From Aurantiacibacter gangjinensis (GTDB taxonomy: Bacteria > Pseudomonadota > Alphaproteobacteria > Sphingomonadales > Sphingomonadaceae): a stretch of DNA of 64,000 nucleotides. Numbering within the stretch: position 1 is the first letter of the stretch; every line of letters begins with the position of its first letter. The stretch covers positions 1,197,001 through 1,261,000 of the forward strand of contig NZ_CP018097.1 in the NCBI RefSeq assembly GCF_001886695.1, read 5' to 3'. Made by a program: the position numbers and the translations under genes. The notes under the pieces are model-generated. The model had not been told where the DNA came from and made no database searches. It saw only the letters and a program-made list of their open reading frames with translations. Shown piece by piece: positions 34,148 through 50,980 of this stretch.

Positions 34148-34238
34148 GGAGCGGTGGCCGAGTGGTCGAAGGCGCACGCCTGGAAAGTGTGTATACGGTA
34201 ACCCCGTATCGAGGGTTCGAATCCCTCTCGCTCCGCCA
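34148..34238 (+). tRNA. tRNA-Ser (anticodon GGA)
   Basis: A 91-base type II tRNA including encoded CCA. The acceptor stem GGAGCGG pairs with TCGCTCC (with a G-T pair). The D arm is TGGCCGAGTGGTCGAAGGC-like. The anticodon loop CTGGAAA gives GGA, reading UCC/UCU. The long variable arm contains TACGG / CCGTA, and the T arm GAGGGTTCGAATCCCTC is standard. The accessory region starts immediately downstream. Confidence 0.95.
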
Positions 34239-34416: not shown

Positions 34417-36069
34417 TCAAGTACCCAGCAACTTCTGCTGATCTGACCAGCTCGCTGGAAGTTCGACGGTCCGGAGTCGGCTAGGAGTTAGCGCGACTGG
34501 TTGAGTGCCCGTAGCAACGGCCTCAACGATCTGCGGGGACAAGAATGCCAGTCGCACCATGCGGGTGACGTATGATGCTGTTACATCGTGACCCCGCGCA
34601 AACTGCGCGATGCTTTGCTGGCCCGATACGATCTCTTCCCACCAGGATCTTCCCTGTTGAACGAGACGCAGCAGCGTTGCATCGACCTGCTTGATACCGC
34701 TGCGTCCGTTCGACTGAACGAGTTGCAGCGCTCTTCCGGTTCGTTTGAGGCAGACGTCTATTGCTAGCGTGGGATTGCGAATGGGCTGTGTTGCCGGAAG
34801 GCTCAGTTCGGAGGCACGCCCAGTTGCATGGAGTGAGATATCCAAGTGCTTGGCAGAGACCTTCACATGCTCGATCAGCGGACGGATCGAGGATACCTGT
34901 TTTTCCCGAATGCGTGCTGCCAGCGCTTCAGCTTTCGTCGATAGGGATGACAAGCTGCTCGCGGATAACTCGCCGCCCATTTGTTCAATCAGCGCAAGCG
35001 GTTGCTCGAGTTCGCTTGCCAGTCGTTCGATGACCGCACCTTCGAGCTCTTTTGCAGGTATCCGCCAGCCCTCGGCGGTCCTGCCACCATCGTGCTGAAG
35101 CGATCTGCTGACATAAAAGCGATAGCGAATCTTGCCTTTACAGGCATGGCTTGCGACCAGCGGCTCACCGCTTTCATCAGACACTTTGCCTGCCAGCATG
35201 CTGGGCGATCGGATTGACTTCGATCGCTGCTCGCCTTGCCGGTTCTCGCCCAGCCTGCATTGCACGGCGTTCCACACATCGCGGTCGATGATCGGCTTGT
35301 GCTGTCCCTTGTAGGTCCGATCCTTGTGCTGGATTTCGCCGATATAAATCGGGTTAGAAAGTATCCGGTAGATCTGGCCCCTTGTGAAGAATGAACCGCC
35401 AATCGCTTTGCCCGAGCGCAGAGTACGCTTGGGCACTTTGATCCGTTCGTCAATAAGCTGGTCGAATACGAGCCGAACGTTGCCATACTTGCGATAACGC
35501 TCGAACAGGTCTCGGATGATAACAGCATGTTCTTCGATGATCCGGAGCGTTCGCCCGTTCGGCTCATAGCCAAGTGGAGATACCCCGCCCATCCACATAC
35601 CCTTGGCCTTTGAAGCAGCAATCTTGTCGCGGATACGCTCAGCGGTAACTTCGCGCTCGAACTGCGCAAAGCTGAGAAGCATATTGAGGGTCAGGCGCCC
35701 CATACTGTTGGTCATGTTGAAAGACTGGGTCACAGAGACGAAGCTGACCTCCGCTTTATCCATGGTCTCGACCAGCTTAGCGAAGTCGAGCAGCGAACGC
35801 GTTAGGCGGTCGACCTTGTAGACCACCACGATATCGATTTTTCCGTCGCGAATGTCCTTTAAAAGCCGCTGCAGAGCAGGGCGCTTCATCGTCCCACCAG
35901 AGATACCGCCATCGTCGTAACTGTTCCCGATTAGCGACCTGCCTTCCGATGTCTGGCTTGTGATATAGGCAGCGCAGGCATCGCTCTGGGCATCGAGCGA
36001 GTTAAAATCCTGCTCTAGTCCTTCCTCGCTTGATTTGCGGGTATAGATGGCGCAGCGGACTTTCTTCAT
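34417..36069 (-). CDS. Large serine recombinase
   Basis: A 550-residue site-specific recombinase. The resolvase domain (about 1-150) begins KKVRCAIYTRKSSEEGLEQ with the nucleophilic Ser in YTRKSS. It contains VVVYKVDRLTRSLLDF and the RLTLNMLLSFAQFEREVTAERIRDKIA helix. The Recombinase domain follows (about 170-290, GVSPLGYEPNGRTL; IYRILSNPIYIGEI). A zinc-ribbon-like region is weak. The C-terminus (about 400-550) includes a helix-turn-helix-like stretch (SIAQFARGHDVTASYVTRMVRLAFLSPQIVEAV). It overlaps the DUF2924 gene by four bases, a common mobile arrangement. Confidence 0.93.
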   Translation of the reverse strand: MKKVRCAIYTRKSSEEGLEQDFNSLDAQSDACAAYITSQTSEGRSLIGNSYDDGGISGGTMKRPALQRLLKDIRDGKIDIVVVYKVDRLTRSLLDFAKLVETMDKAEVSFVSVTQSFNMTNSMGRLTLNMLLSFAQFEREVTAERIRDKIAASKAKGMWMGGVSPLGYEPNGRTLRIIEEHAVIIRDLFERYRKYGNVRLVFDQLIDERIKVPKRTLRSGKAIGGSFFTRGQIYRILSNPIYIGEIQHKDRTYKGQHKPIIDRDVWNAVQCRLGENRQGEQRSKSIRSPSMLAGKVSDESGEPLVASHACKGKIRYRFYVSRSLQHDGGRTAEGWRIPAKELEGAVIERLASELEQPLALIEQMGGELSASSLSSLSTKAEALAARIREKQVSSIRPLIEHVKVSAKHLDISLHATGRASELSLPATQPIRNPTLAIDVCLKRTGRALQLVQSNGRSGIKQVDATLLRLVQQGRSWWEEIVSGQQSIAQFARGHDVTASYVTRMVRLAFLSPQIVEAVATGTQPVALTPSRLRTVELPASWSDQQKLLGT

Positions 36070-36482
36070 GCGGCTTTCGCTTTGTCTCGCAAGCCGAAGA
36101 AGGCAGGGCCTGACCAGCGCGTTCCAGTGATCGCGCGCGCGACCTCGCTTAGCGAGTTCCATTGGCGGCCATTCCATATGATCTCGCCAGCATCGCCGAT
36201 TGTGACCACGTGGACCTTGCCGCCATGCTCGCGCGCCAGCCGCATGCCGGGTTTGAGGTCGCGTGTGATCGCTTTACTGCTTGCACCTGTATTCAATGCC
36301 TGCTTCGTCTTTCGCGACAGCTTCCCCAGCGCTTTGGCCTGCAGTTCGTAGCCAATCGCGAGGCGAAGCAGCGCTGCGCTTACATTGGGAGCTGGTCGAC
36401 CGGTGAGCTTCACCCACCGGTCCTTGAGCTCGGGCCTATTGCGTGCCTCCAGCTCGACAAGCTGCTCGTCGAGCCTGTTCAT
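36066..36482 (-). CDS. DUF2924 protein
   Basis: A 138-residue protein of the DUF2924 family. Blocks LRLAIGYELQAKALGKLSRKTKQAL, LKPGMRLAREHGGKVHVVTI and EIIWNGRQWNSLSEVARAITGTRWSGPAFFGL are diagnostic. Its biochemical function is unknown. It is almost always found directly upstream of a large serine recombinase, as here (ATGA overlap at 36066-36069), so it probably assists recombination or DNA binding. Its own start overlaps the stop of the DUF3489 gene. Confidence 0.9.
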   Translation of the reverse strand: MNRLDEQLVELEARNRPELKDRWVKLTGRPAPNVSAALLRLAIGYELQAKALGKLSRKTKQALNTGASSKAITRDLKPGMRLAREHGGKVHVVTIGDAGEIIWNGRQWNSLSEVARAITGTRWSGPAFFGLRDKAKAA

Positions 36483-36739
36483 ACTCTCGCGCTTGCCGTG
36501 ATAAGATAATGCGAGACTCCATCGAAAGCCTTACGTTCGATTGTGTAGCCTTTCTTCTTAAGTCCGGTCATCGCGGCCCGAGCCGTGTGTGGTTGCCAGC
36601 CTGTGGCCTTCACAATCTGATCGAGCGTCGCGCCCTGCTTCCGCTTCAGAAGCGCGATGACCTTCCCGATTTTGGTCTCGCGCGGCGGCGCTGTCTTGGT
36701 CGCTTTAGCGGCAGGTTTCTTCGGCGTCTTGGTTGTCAT
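36479..36739 (-). CDS. DUF3489 winged-helix-like protein
   Basis: An 86-residue protein. A Lys/Ala/Thr-rich N-terminus (KTPKKPAAKATKTAPP) precedes a compact winged-helix-like domain: KIGKVIALLKRKQGATLDQIVKATGWQPHTARAAMTGLKKKGYTIER. This matches DUF3489, a likely DNA-binding protein. The start at 36739 has AAGGAGAA seven bases upstream. It is the first gene of a three-gene unit (DUF3489, DUF2924, recombinase) with four-base overlaps and could regulate the unit. Confidence 0.88.
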   Translation of the reverse strand: MTTKTPKKPAAKATKTAPPRETKIGKVIALLKRKQGATLDQIVKATGWQPHTARAAMTGLKKKGYTIERKAFDGVSHYLITASARV

Positions 36740-36899
36740 GTGTGGTTCTCCTTCTTGGCGAGCACGCAGGATTGCGGCTCCCACCACTCAAAGCCCCGCG
36801 AAACCATGCTCGGCGGGGCTGGCAGCGGATCGGCAGAAGCGATCCGGTCCGGACACCAATGCTTGCTGTCGCGGCGAAGTCGAATGGAATGTGCGGGTG

Positions 36900-37898: not shown

Positions 37899-38264
37899 AT
37901 GATGCAAGACGACTTCTCCGCACGAACGATGGATTGGTATCTCGCCTGCTTCGGTCCGGTCCGGCAAGGCGATCGGGTCGAGCGCGTCCATCGTTTCCTC
38001 GAAGAGGCGCTCGAGCTCGCGCAGGCGCAGGACTGCACGAAGGAGGATGCGCATGCACTGGTGGAGTACGTGTATTCGAGACCGAAGGGAGACATCGGCA
38101 ACGAGGTCGGAGGGGTGATGATCACGCTGGCGGTTCTGTGCGAGATCGCAGAGGTGTCGATGCAGGAGGCCGGCGAGGAGGAGCTGGCACGTAACTGGAA
38201 GCGGATGGATGCGATCCGCGCGAAGCGGAGGGACAAGCCTGCCGGCAGTCCGCTGCCCCAATGA
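37899..38264 (+). CDS. MazG-like all-alpha NTP pyrophosphohydrolase
   Basis: A 121-residue protein. RVHRFLEEALELAQAQ carries the EExxE metal motif and GDIGNEVGGVMITLAVLCEIA is the second helix, where the usual ExxD appears as ExGG. The end ELARNWKRMDAIRAKRRDKP is also typical of a MazG-like clade common in phages and alphaproteobacteria (from memory). It probably hydrolyses (d)NTPs to monophosphates and could clean or feed a modified-nucleotide pool. The first Met at 37899 is used; 37902 is equivalent. It leads a plus-strand run with the HigB-like and IrrE genes. Confidence 0.75.
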   Translation: MMQDDFSARTMDWYLACFGPVRQGDRVERVHRFLEEALELAQAQDCTKEDAHALVEYVYSRPKGDIGNEVGGVMITLAVLCEIAEVSMQEAGEEELARNWKRMDAIRAKRRDKPAGSPLPQ

Positions 38265-38317
38265 ACAGGGGTCTGGAACGCCTTCCGCCGGTGCGGGAAT
38301 GAATACCGAAGCTCGAC

Positions 38318-38635
38318 ATGCTCCAGATCAGCTATCTCGATGCGACGACGCGCGATCTCGCGACACGGGAGGGGGTCGCCGACGAGAGGCTCGGTCCCGC
38401 CGACGCTCGCGCCCTGCGCACGCTCATCGCGGAGGCGGAGGCCTTCGAATGCGCTGCGCAGTTCATGGAATTCCGAGGCATCGACCCAGACGCGGGGGAT
38501 TCCCTCGAGGTCCCTTTCGGCCTAGGGGGCATCGCGAAGTTCGCGCCGGTGCATCGGCGACGGGTCAAGGACGGGCATGAGCCGCCCGGATGGGACGAAA
38601 TCAAGAGACTCATGCTGAAGGAGGTGTCCGGATGA
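38318..38635 (+). CDS. HigB/RelE-like toxin candidate
   Basis: A 105-residue protein. RLGPADARALRTLIAEAEAFECAAQF resembles the helical hairpin of HigB-type killer proteins, and the second half (LEVPFGLGGIAKFAPVHRRRVKDG) could form the beta sheet. The catalytic residues of characterised HigB enzymes cannot be matched with confidence. The gene overlaps the HigA-like/IrrE gene by four bases (ATGA at 38632), which is the arrangement of a toxin-antitoxin pair and is the main support. An unrelated small partner protein is the alternative. Confidence 0.6.
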   Translation: MLQISYLDATTRDLATREGVADERLGPADARALRTLIAEAEAFECAAQFMEFRGIDPDAGDSLEVPFGLGGIAKFAPVHRRRVKDGHEPPGWDEIKRLMLKEVSG

Positions 38636-39723
38636 CCGAGCAGGCCCAACACGACTGGTTCTCGCCGGTCGGCGACAGCGTCCTCGCAGCCATGCGGCGT
38701 CGAGGCGTGAAGGCCGATTCGCTCAGCCAAGCGCTGCAGGGCGGCCGTGACGAGCTGCGCGCCATCCTCGCAGGGCAGACCGACATCGGCGATCGGACGG
38801 CGACGATCCTCGCCCGGATTCTCGGTGGAACGGCGGCGTTCTGGACGACGAGGCAGAAGAACTTCGAAGAAGCGCTCGGTCGATCCATCGATGCCCTCAA
38901 CGAGAAGGAGAGCGAGGTCTGGCTCGGGACGATACCCATTCCGACGAGGCGACGTCTTACCAAGAGCAACCGTAAGGAAGAACTTCAACGTCGCCTGCGT
39001 TACTACGGGGTCTCGTCGCTTTCGGGTTGGCAGCGTCGCTACGTGCTGGATCGAACGGCCACCCGATTCCGCTCTTCCAACTCGTTCACGTCCGACGAAG
39101 GGTCGTTGTCGCTCTGGCTGCGTTCAGGCGAACTGGAAGCGGCGATGGTCGACACCAAGAGCTGGGACGCGAAGCGTCTAAGTGAACTTCTCCCGGAGAT
39201 CCGTGCCCTCTCGCGCTTCAGCAACCCGTCCGTATTCGTCCCGAAGCTGCAAAGCCTCCTCGCTAAGGCCGGGGTCGCGTTCGTCTTCGTCCGTGCGCCG
39301 AACGGCTGCCGCGCCAGCGGTGCGAGCCGGATGGTCGCGGCGGACAAGGCGATGCTGCTCGTGAGCTTCCGTCATCGCTCCGACGACCAGTTCTGGTTCA
39401 CCGTGTTCCACGAGATCGGCCATCTCGTGCTCCACGGGGCCGAACCCTTCGTTGACCTCGACGGCGGCGACGCGGACGATCGGTTCGAGAGGGAGGCGAA
39501 CGCGTTCGCGGAGGAACTCGTCGTACCTAAGAAGATGCAGCCGGAACTAACGGGCCTTCCCAACCGCAAGAAGGAGATCGTCTCCTTCGCCAGACGGGTC
39601 GGCGTGTCCCCAGGACTGATCCTTGGACAGATGCAGTTCAAGGGGCTCGCTCCCTTCAGTCGCAGTTCGAGACTCCAGAGGACATGGACCTGGAACGACA
39701 TCGAAGCGGCCTTCGAAAGCTAA
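38632..39723 (+). CDS. HigA-type HTH fused to ImmA/IrrE metallopeptidase
   Basis: A 363-residue fusion. Residues 15-75 form a Xre/HigA-like helix-turn-helix (DSLSQALQGGRDELRAILAGQTDIGDRTATILARILGGTAAFWTTRQ). The central part is helical. Residues 255-330 are an ImmA/IrrE peptidase with FHEIGHLVLHG (His260, Glu261, His264) and the downstream FEREANAFAEELVVP segment. Such proteins cleave repressors or act as antitoxins in mobile elements. It begins inside the stop of the HigB-like gene, so the two are coupled. It converges on the pyrophosphorylase-like gene, 39 bases away. Confidence 0.88.
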   Translation: MTEQAQHDWFSPVGDSVLAAMRRRGVKADSLSQALQGGRDELRAILAGQTDIGDRTATILARILGGTAAFWTTRQKNFEEALGRSIDALNEKESEVWLGTIPIPTRRRLTKSNRKEELQRRLRYYGVSSLSGWQRRYVLDRTATRFRSSNSFTSDEGSLSLWLRSGELEAAMVDTKSWDAKRLSELLPEIRALSRFSNPSVFVPKLQSLLAKAGVAFVFVRAPNGCRASGASRMVAADKAMLLVSFRHRSDDQFWFTVFHEIGHLVLHGAEPFVDLDGGDADDRFEREANAFAEELVVPKKMQPELTGLPNRKKEIVSFARRVGVSPGLILGQMQFKGLAPFSRSSRLQRTWTWNDIEAAFES

Positions 39724-39762
39724 GGAGCCGGCCGGACTGACGTTCCGGTATCCGACCCGGCC

Positions 39763-40695
39763 TCAGCCTTTGTAATGCACGAAATGTGCGGGGTGCTTCT
39801 GCCAGTTGCAGAGCGCATCCTCCCATACCTTCATGCCGACCTCGACGCGCCCGTCCAGCTCGAGCAGCCATTTCTCGAAGGACGCCGTCAGGCGAGCGGG
39901 AGCCTTCGTCGATCCCGTGAACAGGAGCGACGCGCCGCGCAGCGGGCCGGTCGACCCGCGAAGGTAGGCGGAACCGGGCGTTGCATGCACGATCCCGTAG
40001 CGGTCGAGCATGGACACCCAGTCGAACCTGCCCAGCCGCGCGAATCCGACACAGGGTAAAGCGCGAAAGAATTCGTCGAAGATCGCCTCCCGACTGTTGC
40101 CCGCCTCCCGGACGAGCTGCGCGAACTTCGCTTCATGGCCACCGGCGCATCCGATCCAATTGGCATACTGGGTGATGGCGCGCCCGATCGGTCGCCGGGA
40201 GTCCGGTCGCATGCTCTCGTACCGGCGATGGCCGCCTTGGTCCCCGCCGACCTCCTGCCAATGCCGCGCGAGCCAGGTTTCGAGGAGATCCGGCTGCGCC
40301 TGCATCGAATTCCAGTCCGCGCGAGCGGTGCCGAGACGACCGTAGACGTCTCTCAGCCGCTTCCAACCACTGCCCGCCGGCTTGCCGAAGACCGTCATCA
40401 GGAAGACGAGCCAGGCCGCCTCGTCGATCTGGCCCCGCTGGAGGAGATGAACTAAGCCGAGTTCGGCCTCGAAGCGATCGTCGTGTGGATTGGCGCGAAA
40501 CGCGGGGATGGCGCCGCGTTCCTGAAGTAACTCGAAGTAGCGCTCCCGCCGCACGCTGGCGACGAGCTGCAGGGCAAGCGTATCCCTCGACGCGTCGTCG
40601 CCAACACCTGGCAACTCGCGGACCTCGCGCGAATAGGCGTCCAGGTCTTCCGCAAACGCCTTCCGCATTTCGGCATATCTCGGCCATCTGGTCAT
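39763..40695 (-). CDS. Alpha-glutamyl/putrescinyl-thymine pyrophosphorylase-like protein (clade 3)
   Basis: A 310-residue protein. The pattern FEAELGLVHLLQRGQIDEAAWLVFLMTVFGKPAGSGWKRLRDVYGRLG, then GGHRRYESM, then LPCVGFARLGRFDWVSMLDRYGI and PGSAYLRGSTGPLRGASLLF matches my recollection of the clade-3 aGPT-PPlase family. That family is predicted to act in DNA-base hypermodification by displacing pyrophosphate from an activated hydroxymethyl-pyrimidine. The fold is helical. It overlaps the thymidylate-synthase-like gene by four bases (ATGA), which strongly supports joint function. No catalytic residue is proven; assignment is by recall of the family pattern. Confidence 0.65.
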   Translation of the reverse strand: MTRWPRYAEMRKAFAEDLDAYSREVRELPGVGDDASRDTLALQLVASVRRERYFELLQERGAIPAFRANPHDDRFEAELGLVHLLQRGQIDEAAWLVFLMTVFGKPAGSGWKRLRDVYGRLGTARADWNSMQAQPDLLETWLARHWQEVGGDQGGHRRYESMRPDSRRPIGRAITQYANWIGCAGGHEAKFAQLVREAGNSREAIFDEFFRALPCVGFARLGRFDWVSMLDRYGIVHATPGSAYLRGSTGPLRGASLLFTGSTKAPARLTASFEKWLLELDGRVEVGMKVWEDALCNWQKHPAHFVHYKG

Positions 40696-41672
40696 CGAGC
40701 CACAGTTTCCCTCTTCCCGACGGGGACCACCCCGTCGCGGTCGTCCATGTAGGTATGGTATTCGCGGTGCGTCAGTCCCCGCATGGCCCGCGTGACCTCC
40801 CCGGCGTCGTCCGACCGGAAGTTGACCAAGACGAGCCGGGCAATGTCCTCGTAGTAGGAATCGAAACCGAGGCCATCGAAGTCCACAGCATCGCCATCTC
40901 GTATCCTAGTCTCGACCTGCATGAGCTTCGCGAATGCTTCGAAAGGATCGCCTGCCGGCATCGCAGGCATGGGCGCGATGCGATGGTATCCCTCGTGCAG
41001 GTAGCCACGGGCGGCGGCGAGATTACTCTCGTATATGTGCATGCTACCGGCGAAATGCACGTATTCGCCCAGGCCAAGCCTGAGCCGGGTGGCGACCATC
41101 TCCTGCAGCATCGTGAAGCAGAAAAGGTCATGCGGGAGGCCGATATAGGCGTCGTTTGACCGCATGGTCGTCGTCATGTGGAGTTGATCGCCGCGGCCAT
41201 GGAACTGGAGGGTGGTCGTGCAGGGGACGTCGCGTTCAAGCGTCCTGTCAGCGGAATCGTAGATCTGGATGATCGCGCGGCGACTGCCGGGCTTTTCCCT
41301 CAGCGTCTCCAGGACGAACTGCAACTGATCGTAGTCGAAGCCCTTCTCGGGAAGCCGTCCGCGCAGACGCGGCCCGTAGGCGTCGGCGACCTCGCTCGGC
41401 GCGCCATCCTGCGAATAGTAGCGGTGGTATGGGTCCATAAAGGACGCCTCGTCCGTGCCGGACAGGTACCAGAGCAGTTCGCCGATCGCGCTGAAGGGCT
41501 TCGCCCGCCTCATCGAACGGCTAAGCCGCGCCCTAGGGTCGGTCAGTCGCAGCGTCGTGCCAATGGTGTCGAGATGCCGCCCCTTCGAACCGACGTTTTC
41601 GACGCCGGTCTCGAGAATGAACGGATAGAGCTGAGCCAAGAGGTCGTCAAGACCGTCCGCCCTGAACTCCAT
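40692..41672 (-). CDS. Thymidylate-synthase-fold enzyme, predicted dCMP (hydroxymethyl)transferase
   Basis: A 326-residue thymidylate-synthase homologue. Cys151 (DVPCTTTLQF) is the nucleophile and RRAIIQIYD holds the phosphate-binding Arg. RSNDAYIGLPHD places Asp182 where E. coli ThyA has Asn177. The Cys-to-Asp spacing of 31, and His212/Tyr214 at +30/+32, reproduce the ThyA register exactly. Asn at this position selects dUMP; phage dCMP hydroxymethylases have Asp. I therefore predict dCMP as substrate. The start at 41672 (MEFRADGLDD) fits the family; a longer frame to 41975 adds atypical sequence. It is coupled to the pyrophosphorylase-like gene. Confidence 0.85.
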   Translation of the reverse strand: MEFRADGLDDLLAQLYPFILETGVENVGSKGRHLDTIGTTLRLTDPRARLSRSMRRAKPFSAIGELLWYLSGTDEASFMDPYHRYYSQDGAPSEVADAYGPRLRGRLPEKGFDYDQLQFVLETLREKPGSRRAIIQIYDSADRTLERDVPCTTTLQFHGRGDQLHMTTTMRSNDAYIGLPHDLFCFTMLQEMVATRLRLGLGEYVHFAGSMHIYESNLAAARGYLHEGYHRIAPMPAMPAGDPFEAFAKLMQVETRIRDGDAVDFDGLGFDSYYEDIARLVLVNFRSDDAGEVTRAMRGLTHREYHTYMDDRDGVVPVGKRETVAR

Positions 41673-42521: not shown

Positions 42522-43619
42522 ATGGCTCTCCACCTGCCGAGCAAGATATCGCGGCTGATAGGCGACTACGCGACGTTGTGCGCACTGATCGGAATGATCC
42601 CGCATGAACTGGAGAAGCGCATCGTCGCCAGGCACTGCGCAGCGAAGCTGGACACGCTCGTGAAGCTGCTGCCACGTCTCAAAAACGAGATGATCTCCCA
42701 TGAATGGATCGGCGGCTCGGACGCGACCGACCTGAACGCGGCAATAAGGCGTCTGCGGACAGACTACGAGGGTAGCCCTCTCGAGAAAGTTCGAGACTCG
42801 ATGTTGGCGCACGCCTTGCAAGTTCCCCCAGCCAGCATTGTCTCGTCGTGGCTGGAGCTCAACGAGACGATGGTCACCATCCTCAACGACGACCTACAAG
42901 GGATAGACCGGAAGCTGGCGTCGCACCATCCAGGCTATCATGGCTTCGTAACGCATCCCGTCGCCGAGAACTGGCCCGAGAGCTGGTGCGACGAAGATCT
43001 CCTCGGCTCGGCAGATGCCATCCGCTTCGCCTCCCATCCGGCGGGCATCGCTTCCGCCGACGTCGCCTCGATGGTGCCGGGCGGTCACCCGGTCCAGGAC
43101 GCCACGCTCAGGATGTCTGGTCTGATGACGTCCATCCGTCAGATAGATCGCATTGCGTTCCCGATGGACGGCTATCCGAACTGCCGCCGTCTGATGGCGG
43201 AGATCATGCTCGTCGACTACTGCGCTATGTGGGAGGGTCTCACCACCGGTCCGGTCAGGAACAACTACGGCGAAGACGAGCCCGGCCTCGGCGCGATGTG
43301 GTCGGAGGATGGCTGGAGCGGCGCCCATCTGCTCATCGATCTCGCGACCCACCCTCATCCAGACTTCAACGCATGGAGGGAGCAGCGCAATCGAAGTGCG
43401 GCACATGTCGACCCGGACATTCCGATCCAGGATATCGATCTGGACAGATGGCCCATGACTTTTGAAGAGCTGACGGTCGAAGCATACAGAGTGATGAATG
43501 CAGTCCAGGCCGCAGCCATGCAGGACATACGTTCGAGGATCGCCATGATGCCGTTACAAACAATCAAAGGAACCCTCGGTCTCGCCGGGAAGGAGGGCAC
43601 GCGCTTCGACGGGCTATGA
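42522..43619 (+). CDS. Hypothetical protein with HEPN-like RNxxxAH motif
   Basis: A 365-residue, mostly helical protein with no signal peptide. Near the C-terminus, WREQRNRSAAHVDPDIPIQDI contains an R-x-R-x3-H arrangement (RNRSAAHVD) like the catalytic Rx4-6H motif of HEPN ribonucleases, followed by helices. The rest is unassigned. An upstream in-frame stop at 42513 forces a start at or after 42522. AAGGAGG ends one base before that ATG, unusually close, so true initiation may be at a later codon or may be inefficient. The context is the accessory cassette. Confidence 0.6.
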   Translation: MALHLPSKISRLIGDYATLCALIGMIPHELEKRIVARHCAAKLDTLVKLLPRLKNEMISHEWIGGSDATDLNAAIRRLRTDYEGSPLEKVRDSMLAHALQVPPASIVSSWLELNETMVTILNDDLQGIDRKLASHHPGYHGFVTHPVAENWPESWCDEDLLGSADAIRFASHPAGIASADVASMVPGGHPVQDATLRMSGLMTSIRQIDRIAFPMDGYPNCRRLMAEIMLVDYCAMWEGLTTGPVRNNYGEDEPGLGAMWSEDGWSGAHLLIDLATHPHPDFNAWREQRNRSAAHVDPDIPIQDIDLDRWPMTFEELTVEAYRVMNAVQAAAMQDIRSRIAMMPLQTIKGTLGLAGKEGTRFDGL

Positions 43620-46641: not shown

Positions 46642-47295
46642 ATGCCCGACCGCGAGTTCGTCGCCATTGTTCAAGCCGCCTTGGGCTGCACAGAAAACTC
46701 GGCGCTTGAAGCGACGCAGTTCGCAGCGCGTCGGTTGTTGGAGCGCGCAAAGGTCGCGTATCATCAAGGGTCTTTCGTCCAGACCTGCAACATCATAATT
46801 TCTGGGTCCGCCGATCTTCGCCTGTTGAGTCAGGATGGCAAATACTTCCAGATGGCAACGGTAGAAGTCGGCGAGCTGTTCGGCGTCTATCCCGACAGCG
46901 CTGAAATCCCAGTTGACGTCATCGCCAGAGAGGGCGCCGAGTTCCTATCTTTCGATGCAGCCAGCCTCGCCAAAATGGCTCTGAACGACTCCAGTCTTGG
47001 TGCCGCGCTGGCAGAAAAATTTGCAATGCAGAACAGCGCCTTGCTTGGGAGGTTCGCGGCCCGCCTGACACTTTCCGCGTCAGGAAGAGTGTGTGAGCAA
47101 TTGCTGCTGGCGATGGACGAAGACAGACGGGTTACACCGGTGCCTGTCATTTCAGCACTTGCAATCCTTGCGCAAACGACCCGTGAAACCGCCTCGCGCA
47201 CAATCAGCAATCTGGAAAGGCGGGGCATTCTAACACGGCATGCCGACCACTGGCTGATAGTAGCTCCCAGAACTTTGGAAGATGCGTTGGTCTGA
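46642..47295 (+). CDS. Crp/Fnr-family transcriptional regulator
   Basis: A 217-residue regulator. Residues about 20-120 form the cyclic-nucleotide-binding-type beta roll (VQTCNIIISGSADLRLLSQDGKYFQMATVEVGELFG), followed by a long dimer helix and a C-terminal winged helix. The recognition region is LAQTTRETASRTISNLERRGILTRHADHW. No Cys cluster of Fnr type is seen. The ligand is unknown. It converges with the TPR/SLOG gene; the two stop codons abut (47295/47296). Confidence 0.85.
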   Translation: MPDREFVAIVQAALGCTENSALEATQFAARRLLERAKVAYHQGSFVQTCNIIISGSADLRLLSQDGKYFQMATVEVGELFGVYPDSAEIPVDVIAREGAEFLSFDAASLAKMALNDSSLGAALAEKFAMQNSALLGRFAARLTLSASGRVCEQLLLAMDEDRRVTPVPVISALAILAQTTRETASRTISNLERRGILTRHADHWLIVAPRTLEDALV

Positions 47296-48705
47296 TCAGC
47301 TGTCAAATATCTGATAGACGTCGAAGGTGCCGTTGGCTGCCTTCACTTCGCCCAAAGGATCGAGCACAAGGTCCGGTGTTTGTGCAAGAGCCGAAAACGC
47401 AAAGGCTTTGGTCGCGCAAAATTCTCCAGCATTTGTTACAGCCAACAGTGCGATCACGCGCTGGTGTGGCTGATCCGGATCGCCTTTGTGCGGAACGTGA
47501 CGATGATCAGCGGCAACTGCGTCTCCCCGGGCGATATGCTGAGCCGCCAAAGCCAATGCAGACGAAACATCCCTACAGATCTGAGTTTTGGGCGGCTGTT
47601 TCACAGCCTGTGTGGCGAGAACAACAAGATTACTGCCCGGATTTACTATCTGACGCGCCATGCCGGGCGCGCGATCTGTTGTCAGGATTATACGCGCGCC
47701 GTCTGCACGCGTTTGAGCGGCATTTGGGCTGGCACGATCTTTTATTCTCAAGCTACACATAACGGTCTGCATTGCTTTGGCATCGTAAACTGCCAAACCT
47801 TCAGCAAGACTTTCGGCAAGCGAAACTGCCGCTGGATTTGGCCCATCGCTATTGGCAAGGCAATCGACAGTTTCAGCTGCCTCCAGCACGGCATCGAACC
47901 TGTCACCCCAAGCATGATCGACTGCCAGCACTGAGTGCTCGCGGAAGAGTGCGCGCGGGCAAGGCAAAATGACATGCAAAGCGCCGCCGCGTTCTAGGAG
48001 GCACTCCGCAACCATTATGTCAGAGCCAGCAGCAAGCGCGCCGTATGCAAAGCCTATAGAGTGTTGATCGAGGGTCTGGGTTATCGCGGGACGCAGTTCC
48101 TCATCGTCTAGGGCAACGGACATAATGCCAGTGTAATGCAGGCATTGGGGCGGTTGGAAATCCGATAGCCAATCTGTTTGCAGACCAAGTGCGTCGCTGA
48201 TCAAGGCGAACTGACTGATCGTAACCGCACGATCTTCCCAAGCCTTTGGGGCAAGCGCCACTGCGCCGGTCAGTGCCTGTCTCGCCTCGCTTGACTTGCG
48301 GAGAAGGAGCAAGGCTTCGGCATATGTTGCATGCCGCCAATATGGCGTTTCCGCCTCGTCCGGATTCGCGTCCAGAGCGTTCAGTGTTTGCTGCGCGAGC
48401 TCTCGTGATTGTTCCTCCTCGCCCGCTAGCAGGGCAAGGGTCGCTGCATTGATCAGCGGATAGGAAAGATGCTCTGCGCCGACGGCGCTTGCATAAAGGT
48501 CGGATGATTGCCGAAACAAGGCTCTGGCCTCATCGCCATCGCTCCGTTTGGCGCGCTCTTTAAGCAGGCGCCCGCGCAGCAATAGAACAGCCGGATCCTC
48601 CGCGTCTTGGCTGGCTGCAAAGTCCTCCAGCAAGCCAAATGCCCGGTCGAGATTTCCCGACCGGGCGTGGCGAATGACGCGGTTGCGGATGCTATGCGTT
48701 TTCAT
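47296..48705 (-). CDS. TPR protein with Rossmann/SLOG-like region
   Basis: A 469-residue cytosolic protein. Residues about 1-160 are TPR-like helices (NLDRAFGLLEDFAASQ; LSYPLINAATLALLAGEEEQSRELAQQTL). Residues about 180-290 form an alpha/beta region: HYTGIMSVA, then IGFAYGALAAGSDIMVAECLLERGGALHVILPCP and LFREHSVL. This resembles the SLOG-like nucleotide-binding part of TRAFs-binding/TPR proteins often linked to cyclases or TIR proteins (from memory). The C-terminus IILTTDRAPGMARQIVNPGSNLVVLATQAV is unassigned. The ATG at 48705 is preferred to a TTG at 48723. It lies 45 bases downstream of an unknown gene. Confidence 0.72.
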   Translation of the reverse strand: MKTHSIRNRVIRHARSGNLDRAFGLLEDFAASQDAEDPAVLLLRGRLLKERAKRSDGDEARALFRQSSDLYASAVGAEHLSYPLINAATLALLAGEEEQSRELAQQTLNALDANPDEAETPYWRHATYAEALLLLRKSSEARQALTGAVALAPKAWEDRAVTISQFALISDALGLQTDWLSDFQPPQCLHYTGIMSVALDDEELRPAITQTLDQHSIGFAYGALAAGSDIMVAECLLERGGALHVILPCPRALFREHSVLAVDHAWGDRFDAVLEAAETVDCLANSDGPNPAAVSLAESLAEGLAVYDAKAMQTVMCSLRIKDRASPNAAQTRADGARIILTTDRAPGMARQIVNPGSNLVVLATQAVKQPPKTQICRDVSSALALAAQHIARGDAVAADHRHVPHKGDPDQPHQRVIALLAVTNAGEFCATKAFAFSALAQTPDLVLDPLGEVKAANGTFDVYQIFDS

Positions 48706-48750
48706 GAAATCATATTTCAACAATTGTTTCGTCGAGAGCGGCTCACCCGA

Positions 48751-49407
48751 TTATGGGTCGGATGGCAACATCAAGAAACTGCCGATGGGTGGGTGCGCCC
48801 CGCCGTGGTTAGGCAGTTCCTCAAGCTGCGGCGTATTGCGTTTGTAAGGCATCGAGACCCATGGGAGATTACCATCGGGATCAAGCAAGTTAAAATAAAA
48901 GGGTAAGCGGATGGGACCGCTCCGTTTTAGAGGCAGTCCGGGACGGCCGTTTGCAGGCAAGAACACCCGTTGATGCTCCAGGACAAAGGAAGCCCAACGC
49001 GGTTCGCCCGCTGCCGGCGCATGTTGCCTTGGATCTTCTATGATTGGCTCCATTATCGTACCGTTGCATCCGAATGATTCCAGCGGTCGGGTGTCGTGGA
49101 AGAACAAGCTTTGGCCGTGGTCGTAGCCTGACCCCGGCTTTTTCCCGGCGTTGAGATAAATCGCATAAAGATGCCTGCCCTTCTCGACACTTATATCAAG
49201 CAGGCGGTCATTCGGTACCAAAGGATCGACAGGTTGCTGTGGTGTTGGGTCCCTCTCCCAATTGCCGCCAATCAATTGCTCTAGCACTTTGTAAGCATCT
49301 TCATTCGGCTTGATTTTGAACTGCTTTATACGAGAAAAATACGCATCGAATGTTCCTGATGTCTGCACTTCGTGAACGACAATTGATTTGATTTTGTCAT
49401 TCGTCAT
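48751..49407 (-). CDS. Hypothetical protein in the TIR/TPR locus
   Basis: A 218-residue soluble protein without signal peptide. An N-terminal alpha/beta part (IKSIVVHEVQTSGTFDAYFSRIKQFKI; RLLDISVEKGRHLYAIYLNAGKK) precedes a Pro/Gly-rich C-terminus (HGGAHPPIGSFLML). I recognise no domain. It lies 13 bases after the TIR gene and 45 bases before the TPR/SLOG gene on the same strand, so it is probably part of the same transcript and function. Confidence 0.65.
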   Translation of the reverse strand: MTNDKIKSIVVHEVQTSGTFDAYFSRIKQFKIKPNEDAYKVLEQLIGGNWERDPTPQQPVDPLVPNDRLLDISVEKGRHLYAIYLNAGKKPGSGYDHGQSLFFHDTRPLESFGCNGTIMEPIIEDPRQHAPAAGEPRWASFVLEHQRVFLPANGRPGLPLKRSGPIRLPFYFNLLDPDGNLPWVSMPYKRNTPQLEELPNHGGAHPPIGSFLMLPSDP

Positions 49408-49420
49408 AAGTCTTTCCTTC

Positions 49421-50980
49421 CTACTCGAAAACCTGTCTGCGATATTCGCGCCACCGCGCGTTGGCCGGGTCGCGCTCGATCAAGAGGGCGTTTGTCGCCC
49501 GTGCTCGTTCGAAATAGCTGTTTGCCGCTTCTTCCTGCCCTATGCTGCGAAGCAATGCTGCATGGCGCACATGGATTTCCATCGAAAGCTCGCGCCGCAG
49601 CATATCTTGCGGATCGTCGGCAACCAGCTGCTCTGCAATCTGGAGATAACGCTGCTGTGCGGTTTCGGAGATGTCCGGCTCCCCTGCGCGCAGCGATGCC
49701 ATCGCCAGCCACAGATTATGATAGGCTAGGTCATACAGCCCATCATCACGTTCCTCGCTGACAGTGTTAAGGCGCCGATCGACCATTTCGATAAGCTCAA
49801 GATTTCGGTCAACCGCATTCCGGCAGGCGGAAAAGTCTGAAAGTGGCGCTCGGTCGCGGCTTACTTGCGCGGCGCAGATGTTGCCTTGCGCGTAGGCTGC
49901 AAGCCGAACCCATTCTTCTCGCTCGTTGCCCCAGTCTGCACTGCTTTCGAGCAGTTCGAGCACGGGCTCCCAGACCATCAGTGCGTCCGAATATTCGCCC
50001 CGTTCGAAAGCAAGAAGCGCAATGCGGTTCTGTCCTTCTGCATGACGGAACATTCTGTAAGGATCCCCCGGGCCATCTTCGAGAAGCGCCTGCGTTTCCG
50101 CTAAAGAATCACGGTAATGTGCTTCCGCTGCGTCGAAATCACCGAGAGCCTGATCATCTTGCCCCAACCGCATAAGCGACAGTGCCCTCAAGTCGCGGCT
50201 GTCATTGGCGAGGCGGGCAGCATCCCCCTGTCGCTGATAATATTGCTGAACGCGCTGATTGACTGAACTCATCAAATCGATTCGTCCGACTTCGGTCAGT
50301 TTGCCGCGCAGATCAGTCACCATGAAGTCAACCAAGCCTTCAGCTTCAGCGCGCTGCTGTTCGGCGGTTTCACGAGCTTGGATTGCGACATATGTCATGA
50401 TTGCCATGGCTACCATCACGACCGAAGCGAGCGCCGTGACTGCCATCACGCGGCGCAATTTTCTTTGCGCATCGCGTTGCAACAACTCGGTTAGCGGAAC
50501 GTGGGCGAGGCCTGCGATGAGTTTTAAAAGACCAAGGCGACGCCCGTCGCTGTTAGCGCGGAAATCGGCGGCAAGAGGCTCTGCTGTCTTATCTAACTTA
50601 GAAAGGGCTGGGGGAAAGGCTTTCTTTGGCTCGCCCGATGCGAGCGCCAGTAAAATCGGCCTTCCAGGATGCAATTCGCGAAAAACCTCAATCTCGCGAT
50701 TGACCCATTGCGAGGCGGCGGCATTTGGAGAGCAAATGACGACCAAAGCATCGGAGCGCTCCAACGCAGCCTTGACTTCAGCAGTGAGACTGGTCGCTGC
50801 GGGAAGTTCCTCGCGATCGAGAAATACCGGCAGCAGCTTCTTGTTGAGCTGGCCGTCTGGCGTTTCGCTCTGGGTGACTTGCTTAGGAAATCGATAGGTC
50901 TGCAAGCGTGAATGTAGCCATTTTGCGAATGTCGCATCTGCATGGCTGTAACTGATAAACGCGCAGTATCGCTCCACCAT
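49421..50980 (-). CDS. TIR-domain protein with transmembrane helix and TPRs
   Basis: A 519-residue protein. Residues 1-140 form a TIR domain: YCAFISYSHADATFAKWLHSRLQTY, VFLDREELPA, SDALVVICSPNAAASQWVNREIEVF. The Glu in QWVNREIEVF lies where NAD-cleaving TIRs have the catalytic Glu. A transmembrane helix follows at about 180-203 (VMAVTALASVVMVAMAIMTYV), and the rest is TPR-like helices (about 260-515). The layout suggests a membrane-anchored receptor or effector. It heads the minus-strand unit with the unknown protein and the TPR/SLOG protein. Confidence 0.85.
   Translation of the reverse strand: MVERYCAFISYSHADATFAKWLHSRLQTYRFPKQVTQSETPDGQLNKKLLPVFLDREELPAATSLTAEVKAALERSDALVVICSPNAAASQWVNREIEVFRELHPGRPILLALASGEPKKAFPPALSKLDKTAEPLAADFRANSDGRRLGLLKLIAGLAHVPLTELLQRDAQRKLRRVMAVTALASVVMVAMAIMTYVAIQARETAEQQRAEAEGLVDFMVTDLRGKLTEVGRIDLMSSVNQRVQQYYQRQGDAARLANDSRDLRALSLMRLGQDDQALGDFDAAEAHYRDSLAETQALLEDGPGDPYRMFRHAEGQNRIALLAFERGEYSDALMVWEPVLELLESSADWGNEREEWVRLAAYAQGNICAAQVSRDRAPLSDFSACRNAVDRNLELIEMVDRRLNTVSEERDDGLYDLAYHNLWLAMASLRAGEPDISETAQQRYLQIAEQLVADDPQDMLRRELSMEIHVRHAALLRSIGQEEAANSYFERARATNALLIERDPANARWREYRRQVFE

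Follow-up and report, generated by a model that had tools for sequence, protein, structure and literature searches.

Phages are the main known source of aGPT-PPlases, enzymes that serve the hypermodified DNA of these viruses. There the hydroxymethyl base is first phosphorylated by a kinase, and the thymidine hypermodification region of Pseudomonas phage PaMx11 holds a thymidylate synthase (TS)-fold protein (gp51), a 5-hydroxymethyldeoxyuridine (5-hmdU) kinase (gp50) and a glycinyltransferase of the ADDT family (gp46, PUGT), the last of which acts on DNA. A TS-fold enzyme and an ADDT-family transferase likewise share one region at positions 37,899-41,672 of the DNA analyzed here, a 64-kb stretch (the window) of the 2.72-Mb genome of Aurantiacibacter gangjinensis, where they are joined by a HigB-fold protein, a fusion of helix-turn-helix (HTH) and ImmA/IrrE zinc-peptidase domains (HTH-IrrE) and a MazG-like protein (Table 1). 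The other close relative is PD-lambda-2, in which a HigB-fold protein is followed by an HTH-IrrE fusion, the same as in the module; there the B protein is toxic, the A protein neutralizes B, the system defends against lambda, and the third gene is akin to a P4 phage antitoxin (PMC9519451). In the module the partners are the TS-fold enzyme and an aGPT-PPlase of clade 3 (aGPT3), set tail to tail with the pair.

In DefensePredictor (2026, PMC13092281), aGPT-PPlase and MazG domains were predicted to be defensive without testing, and the validated Escherichia coli systems include TS and 5-hydroxymethyluracil kinase domains. The aGPT-PPlase system was not validated there and may or may not have the present layout. 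No paper describing the four-gene module was found, and an earlier description in Iyer 2013 or Burroughs 2015 (both Nucleic Acids Research) is possible. We read the locus, tentatively, as a mobile conflict module of four genes, to which a MazG-like gene may be added; an anti-phage system of the abortive type is the likeliest role.

Composition and conservation of the module

The five open frames are real, and the initial annotation, made from the window alone, had correctly described five genes in 3.8 kb with three converging on two. The rightward and leftward groups face tail to tail with 39 bp separating the stops, and the frames overlap by 4 bp both in the HigB/HTH-IrrE pair and in the TS/aGPT3 pair.

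aGPT3 as the query recovered 164 relatives in GTDB genomes (80 were taken), 26 IMG/VR loci and 8 plasmid records (seven regions opened). A total of 117 aGPT3 loci were compared; in 94 the sequence reached far enough to either side, and 23 were set aside as truncated. The expectation that the neighborhood would recur elsewhere held for a core of four genes: TS, aGPT3, HTH-IrrE and HigB were all present in 94/94 untruncated loci, a count that leans to closer relatives because 80 of the 164 GTDB relatives were taken. The order was the same throughout (TS, aGPT3, then IrrE and HigB on the opposite strand), the aGPT3 and IrrE stops were at most 60 bp apart in 91/94, and a few loci carried a second copy or fragment of one module gene. 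Several of the loci were near-identical (95 clusters at 90% aGPT3 identity), and the core was complete in 90 of the 95 clusters. So strict a set of four genes argues for joint action of the enzymes and the toxin-like pair.

In draws made independently of layout, five genomes besides that of the window carried aGPT3. TS and IrrE adjoined it in four, HigB was seen in three of these four (the fourth stretch was too short), and one genome (G271) had no partner. The module is rare, with aGPT3 in 3/199 family, 4/398 phylum and 1/385 class genomes, the window's genome counted in each. By record title the hosts belong to Pseudomonadota, Planctomycetota, Acidobacteriota, Chloroflexota, Gemmatimonadota and Bacteroidota, several only as metagenome-assembled genomes; hosts of plasmid-borne modules add Actinomycetota and Spirochaetota, for a total of eight phyla.

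The four protein trees correlated (r = 0.74-0.89, 86 loci; highest permuted value 0.16), with host phylogeny not corrected for. The window's genome carries a second complete five-gene set in the same order (copy 2, L006:3926-7704), with identities to the window of 59% (MazG-like), 35% (HigB), 50% (HTH-IrrE), 50% (aGPT3) and 51% (TS). For copy 2 and the Novosphingobium copy (L052), the ratio of nonsynonymous to synonymous substitution rates (dN/dS) was 0.05-0.09 in all five genes, at a dS of 0.66-1.94 that is partly saturated; all five genes are under purifying selection in this one pair of copies.

The MazG-like gene, which the initial annotation had counted as a member of the set, is not core: the window type was present in 36 of the 108 loci holding all four core genes. 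The metal-binding motifs of MazG pyrophosphohydrolases are EExxE ... ExxD. The 121-aa protein has weak kinship to MazG; the first motif is kept in 37/37 aligned sequences, the second reads ExxG instead of ExxD in 36/37, and the pyrophosphohydrolase activity ascribed to it is uncertain. The E. coli module has an 87-aa gene, annotated as MazG-like, in the opposite orientation. The window-type profile did not match it at up to E 0.1, and three further loci, two of which are nearly identical, held relatives of the E. coli type. As the E. coli type is unmatched by the window-type profile and has relatives of its own, MazG-like genes appear to have joined the module at least twice. The core is thus four genes, and MazG-like genes are optional.

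Neighboring frames of at least 90 aa within 3.5 kb were clustered, and clusters of three or more loci were kept. Among the first 30 clusters no enzyme was common to the module; recombinase/integrase families and antisense frames were found instead, and the cut-off of 90 aa kept the 87-aa E. coli-type MazG-like gene out of view. This clustering gave no support for a conserved kinase or any other fifth gene. A small DUF4031-type gene lay beside the module in eight loci (e.g., L050:1326-1718), upstream of TS in seven, with Pfam confirming one member. Sequence sets comprised 60 aGPT3, 56 of 97 distinct HigB and 20 of 34 MazG-like proteins.

The TS-fold and aGPT3 enzymes

The TS-fold protein matched PF00303 (E = 3.7e-27), and its best PDB match was the CMP 5-hydroxymethylase MilA (E = 2.1e-35), with the best thymidylate synthase at 1.1e-17. 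Across 113 aligned sequences, among them the window's own, the catalytic Cys was invariant (113/113), and all 113 carried Asp at the position of N177 of E. coli thymidylate synthase (EcTS) and Ser at that of EcTS S167 (MilA Ala176). Asp at the first position selects cytosine and Ser at the second selects deoxyribose (PMC5175136, PMC6400193), which agrees with the dCMP-type specificity first proposed for this enzyme. The hydroxymethylation signature consists of an acid three residues before the Cys (Cys-3) plus a Ser two before a Tyr (PMC6400193). The residue at Cys-3 was Asp or Glu in 104/113, and the Ser was replaced by Gly in 108/113, as also in phage gp51. As controls, the genome's own ThyA had Asn at the base-selecting position and Leu at Cys-3, and PaMx11 gp51 had Asn (Asn177) and Asp, respectively. 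MilA and T4 dCMP hydroxymethylase have the fold, the catalytic Cys and the cytosine-selecting Asp in common with the module enzyme; the T4 enzyme also has the acid at Cys-3 but keeps a Ser (Ser94) where the module has Gly, whereas MilA has a ribose-type Ala in place of the module's Ser. On these residues the module enzyme is predicted to be a dCMP hydroxymethylase.

It is not the cell's own thymidylate synthase, because a full-length ThyA is encoded elsewhere in the window's genome (G000:C1:1787936). Directly past the ThyA gene (G000:C1:1788861-1789058) lies a partial match to TS, interrupted by a stop codon and perhaps a decayed duplicate.

The kinship to MilA bears on an antimetabolite route, in which a MilA-like enzyme would make hydroxymethyl-(d)CMP and aGPT3 would release or exchange the base of the free nucleotide to yield a growth inhibitor, as in mildiomycin synthesis. 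This is very improbable: two residues give MilA its preference for ribose, and of these Ala176 is Ser in all 113 sequences and Lys133 is Arg in 94 and Lys in 19, and aGPT3 matches the amino acid:DNA transferase family.

The 39763-40695 product, initially called aGPT-PPlase-like, matched the PF18746 profile at E = 2.1e-119 (398.5 bits vs. a curated cut-off of 25), and the score rules out a spurious call. Both aGPT3 and PUGT match Pfam ADDT. PUGT, a characterized relative (entry title: phage 5-PmdU glycinyltransferase), was the best structural match, and in structure comparison the aGPT3 fold resembled DNA glycosylases. Foldseek of aGPT3 against PDB returned nothing under E 0.001, and against BFVD one match, a phage ADDT protein (3.7e-4). 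Aligned by profile, aGPT3 and PUGT agreed weakly (probability 2.7%), their shared C-x-W stretch being suggestive only, and for the HigB and aGPT3 profiles no PDB sequence scored better than E 0.08. From its family and fold, aGPT3 is predicted to transfer a group onto an activated hydroxymethyl base.

A straight copy of the phage hypermodification route was not supported. PaMx11 gp51 has the uracil-type Asn where the module TS has the cytosine-type Asp (113/113), and the module adds a toxin-antitoxin-like pair; the phage thymidine pathway was not simply copied, because a 5-hmdU DNA kinase turned up neither in the genome (profile search) nor in the loci (one phage kinase as query). A tblastn search of 50,697 phage records with the window aGPT3 returned no match at E 1e-3, which weighs against a phage origin as a DNA-protection set. 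Among the 26 IMG/VR loci, the aGPT3 of 13 was at least 95% identical to a bacterial-genome or plasmid locus.

Whether aGPT3 would act on DNA or on nucleotides bears on a further alternative, a self-DNA mark, in which the enzymes hypermodify a fraction of the cytosines in the host's DNA and the mark keeps the toxin pair silent for as long as it is present (self/non-self discrimination and addiction). The strongly basic aGPT3 (median isoelectric point (pI) 9.43, n = 112) slightly favors action on DNA, and the PUGT neighbor and glycosylase-like fold speak for such a mark. Against it stand the missing kinase for the hydroxymethyl group, the want of a match to the window aGPT3 among phage records, and the McrBC-type genes that adjoin copy 2 and lie near the L052 copy; the free-nucleotide TS substrate and the occasional MazG-like partner would favor action on nucleotides. 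We regard a self-DNA mark as unlikely.

McrBC-type restriction cuts DNA containing 5-methylcytosine or 5-hydroxymethylcytosine in known cases, and the presence of such genes beside a predicted maker of hydroxymethylcytosine is suggestive. They were found at L006:32-3795 and L052:11317-15986, and in no other of the loci searched.

The HigB-fold and HTH-IrrE pair and the mobile context

HTH-IrrE matched PF06114, and TIGR02607 below cut-off. The HExxH zinc site was conserved, with H, E and H each kept in 112/113 aligned sequences. The best PADLOC match was PD-Lambda-2_B (E = 6.1e-21), with capP and RmrA also listed. The 105-aa protein showed a HigB/RelE fold when its structure model was viewed with VIA-align; the window protein had no match to the PF05015 profile, and 2/56 relatives matched, at up to E 0.1. 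Of the pair first described as a HigB-like protein and a HigA-ImmA/IrrE fusion, the HigB fold and the PF06114 fusion stood. The module thus holds a HigB-like protein with an HTH-peptidase fusion, as PD-lambda-2 does. No PADLOC match to PD-Lambda-2 A or C was obtained in the five window proteins or the 56 HigB relatives, the library's having such models being unchecked. By analogy, the HigB-fold protein is possibly an antitoxin, like PD-lambda-2A, and HTH-IrrE would be the toxic or effector half, like PD-lambda-2B.

Infection-sensing repressor/protease switches are known from ImmA-ImmR and CapP-CapH, and HTH-IrrE and HigB might form one that turns on the enzyme pair without killing. The HTH plus zinc-peptidase architecture with its intact HExxH, the capP and RmrA matches, and the XRE regulator name given to HTH-IrrE in E. 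coli by RefSeq are consistent with such a regulator. We nevertheless hold it to be quite unlikely, as the pair runs toward the enzyme genes, which puts its promoter and that of TS at opposite ends, and as the best PADLOC match is to a protein shown to be toxic.

The window module lies on an island that begins at the 3' end of a tRNA-Ser gene. Contiguous DNA matches to three congeners stop at that point (40 of 152-186 candidates scored per genome); from there to 46.5 kb the listed congener matches were a recombinase stretch (one congener) and short pieces left of 36.9 kb, and none of those listed lay within the module. The aGPT3 profile was absent from 3/3 congeners. A search for attachment-site repeats of the tRNA-Ser region found no exact 15-mer elsewhere in the window. 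Copy 2 lies between the McrBC-type genes and an integrase-like gene. The module is placed on mobile islands and plasmids.

In E. coli, the module was present in 226/5,426 complete genomes (~4%) with at least 80% of the query covered, and 245/250 matching records were at least 99% identical. Three regions picked among the best matches were read: TS and aGPT3 converge on HTH-IrrE, followed by type I restriction genes. A HigB-type frame after HTH-IrrE, unannotated in the record, was recovered at L135:9164-9499 (E = 6.7e-33). RefSeq names some E. coli aGPT3 copies clade 3. A dGTP triphosphohydrolase family gene precedes the module in two of the three regions (L136:3446-4678 and L137:4289-5521), with one insertion sequence between gene and module.

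Plasmid and integrative-island locations, with toxin-antitoxin-like proteins, would also suit pure addiction, in which the module only stabilizes its plasmid or island. Two extra conserved enzymes under purifying selection are not needed for addiction, and the E. coli regions read are chromosomal and beside restriction genes; we consider this explanation improbable.

Table 1. Positions of the module genes and of neighboring features in the window.
Feature	Position	Strand	Match or remark
tRNA-Ser (GGA), left border of island	34148..34238	+	ARAGORN
Large serine recombinase, likely island integrase	34417..36177	-	PF00239 E 9.2e-38, PF07508 E 1.1e-13
DUF2924 + DUF3489 genes adjoining recombinase	36066..36787	-	PF11149 E 6.2e-35, PF11994 E 1e-19
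MazG-like all-alpha protein, 121 aa, optional fifth gene	37899..38264	+	weak MazG kinship
HigB/RelE-fold protein, 105 aa	38318..38635	+	
HTH (HigA-like) + ImmA/IrrE zinc-peptidase fusion, 363 aa	38632..39723	+	PF06114
aGPT-PPlase clade 3/ADDT-type base-hypermodification enzyme (aGPT3), 310 aa	39763..40695	-	PF18746
TS-fold pyrimidine hydroxymethylase, predicted dCMP hydroxymethylase, 326 aa	40692..41672	-	PF00303; ATG at 41672, open frame extends up to 41975

Just past the module, 42522-43619 has a good coding signal for a 365-aa protein that matched nothing in Pfam, NCBIfam or PADLOC. Further on in this accessory region, a separate cluster (46642-50980) holds a Crp-type regulator and TPR-sensor/MAP3K-TRAF-binding-like, unknown and TIR-TPR proteins, the last matching TIR_2 (E = 2.1e-15) and ThsB_TIR (4e-9); it is possibly another defense locus.

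Proposed function

In the proposed mechanism, the TS-fold enzyme would convert dCMP to 5-hydroxymethyl-dCMP, as its active-site residues suggest, and aGPT3 may couple the cytosine to an amine or amino acid via the activated hydroxymethyl group, on the nucleotide or in DNA. The HigB-fold/HTH-IrrE pair, by its likeness to PD-lambda-2, would form a toxin-antitoxin-like switch that is released when infection alters the nucleotide or DNA state, and the MazG-like protein, when present, might prevent modified triphosphates from entering the host's DNA. Three observations favor defense: the module is mobile, it adjoins type I restriction genes in all three E. coli regions read, and HTH-IrrE is akin to PD-lambda-2.

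Several points weigh against this reading. The activation step is unexplained because no 5-hmdU DNA kinase was found: PF18723, a profile that does find PhiW-14, had 0 matches in the window's own genome, and phmmer with PaMx11 gp50 as the one query found no kinase in the cassette loci, other kinase kinds being possible. The high pI of aGPT3 speaks only weakly for a DNA substrate, since PUGT has a pI of 5.69. The tail-to-tail layout may reflect co-transfer rather than a functional link, and aGPT3 may act alone, because genome G271 carries a lone divergent copy (L126:1387-2295) with no module partner in the 12 kb read, 1.65 kb of which was available upstream of aGPT3. Around the module, 281 flanking genes were picked, 129 drawn and 128 scanned (L102, left out, is a MazG-like module gene); restriction-modification, GajA, LmuB and reverse-transcriptase PADLOC models each matched in one or two of the 128 proteins (25 families listed of 219 matched). 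These matches are not specific, as there was no background rate and one of them, MzaA, fell on a sigma-70 protein.

By eye, the gene before the G271 aGPT3 looks like a beta-lactamase-type hydrolase.

Within the defense reading, a more specific version is that the module raises an alarm: dCMP, increased by phage DNA degradation or dCTP hydrolysis, would be turned into a hypermodified deoxycytidine ligand that acts on the HTH-IrrE/HigB switch and leads to death. We give this version a low probability; if true, immunity would have a second messenger built on a modified base, made by enzymes whose role was thought to lie solely in protecting phage DNA.

Through its E. coli allele the module can be tested at once in laboratory strains. 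The locus ties a distinct aGPT-PPlase clade to a predicted cytosine-type hydroxymethylase and a toxin-antitoxin-like pair across eight bacterial phyla and, if it is a defense system, base-hypermodification chemistry would have been turned into immunity, with a modified cytosine.

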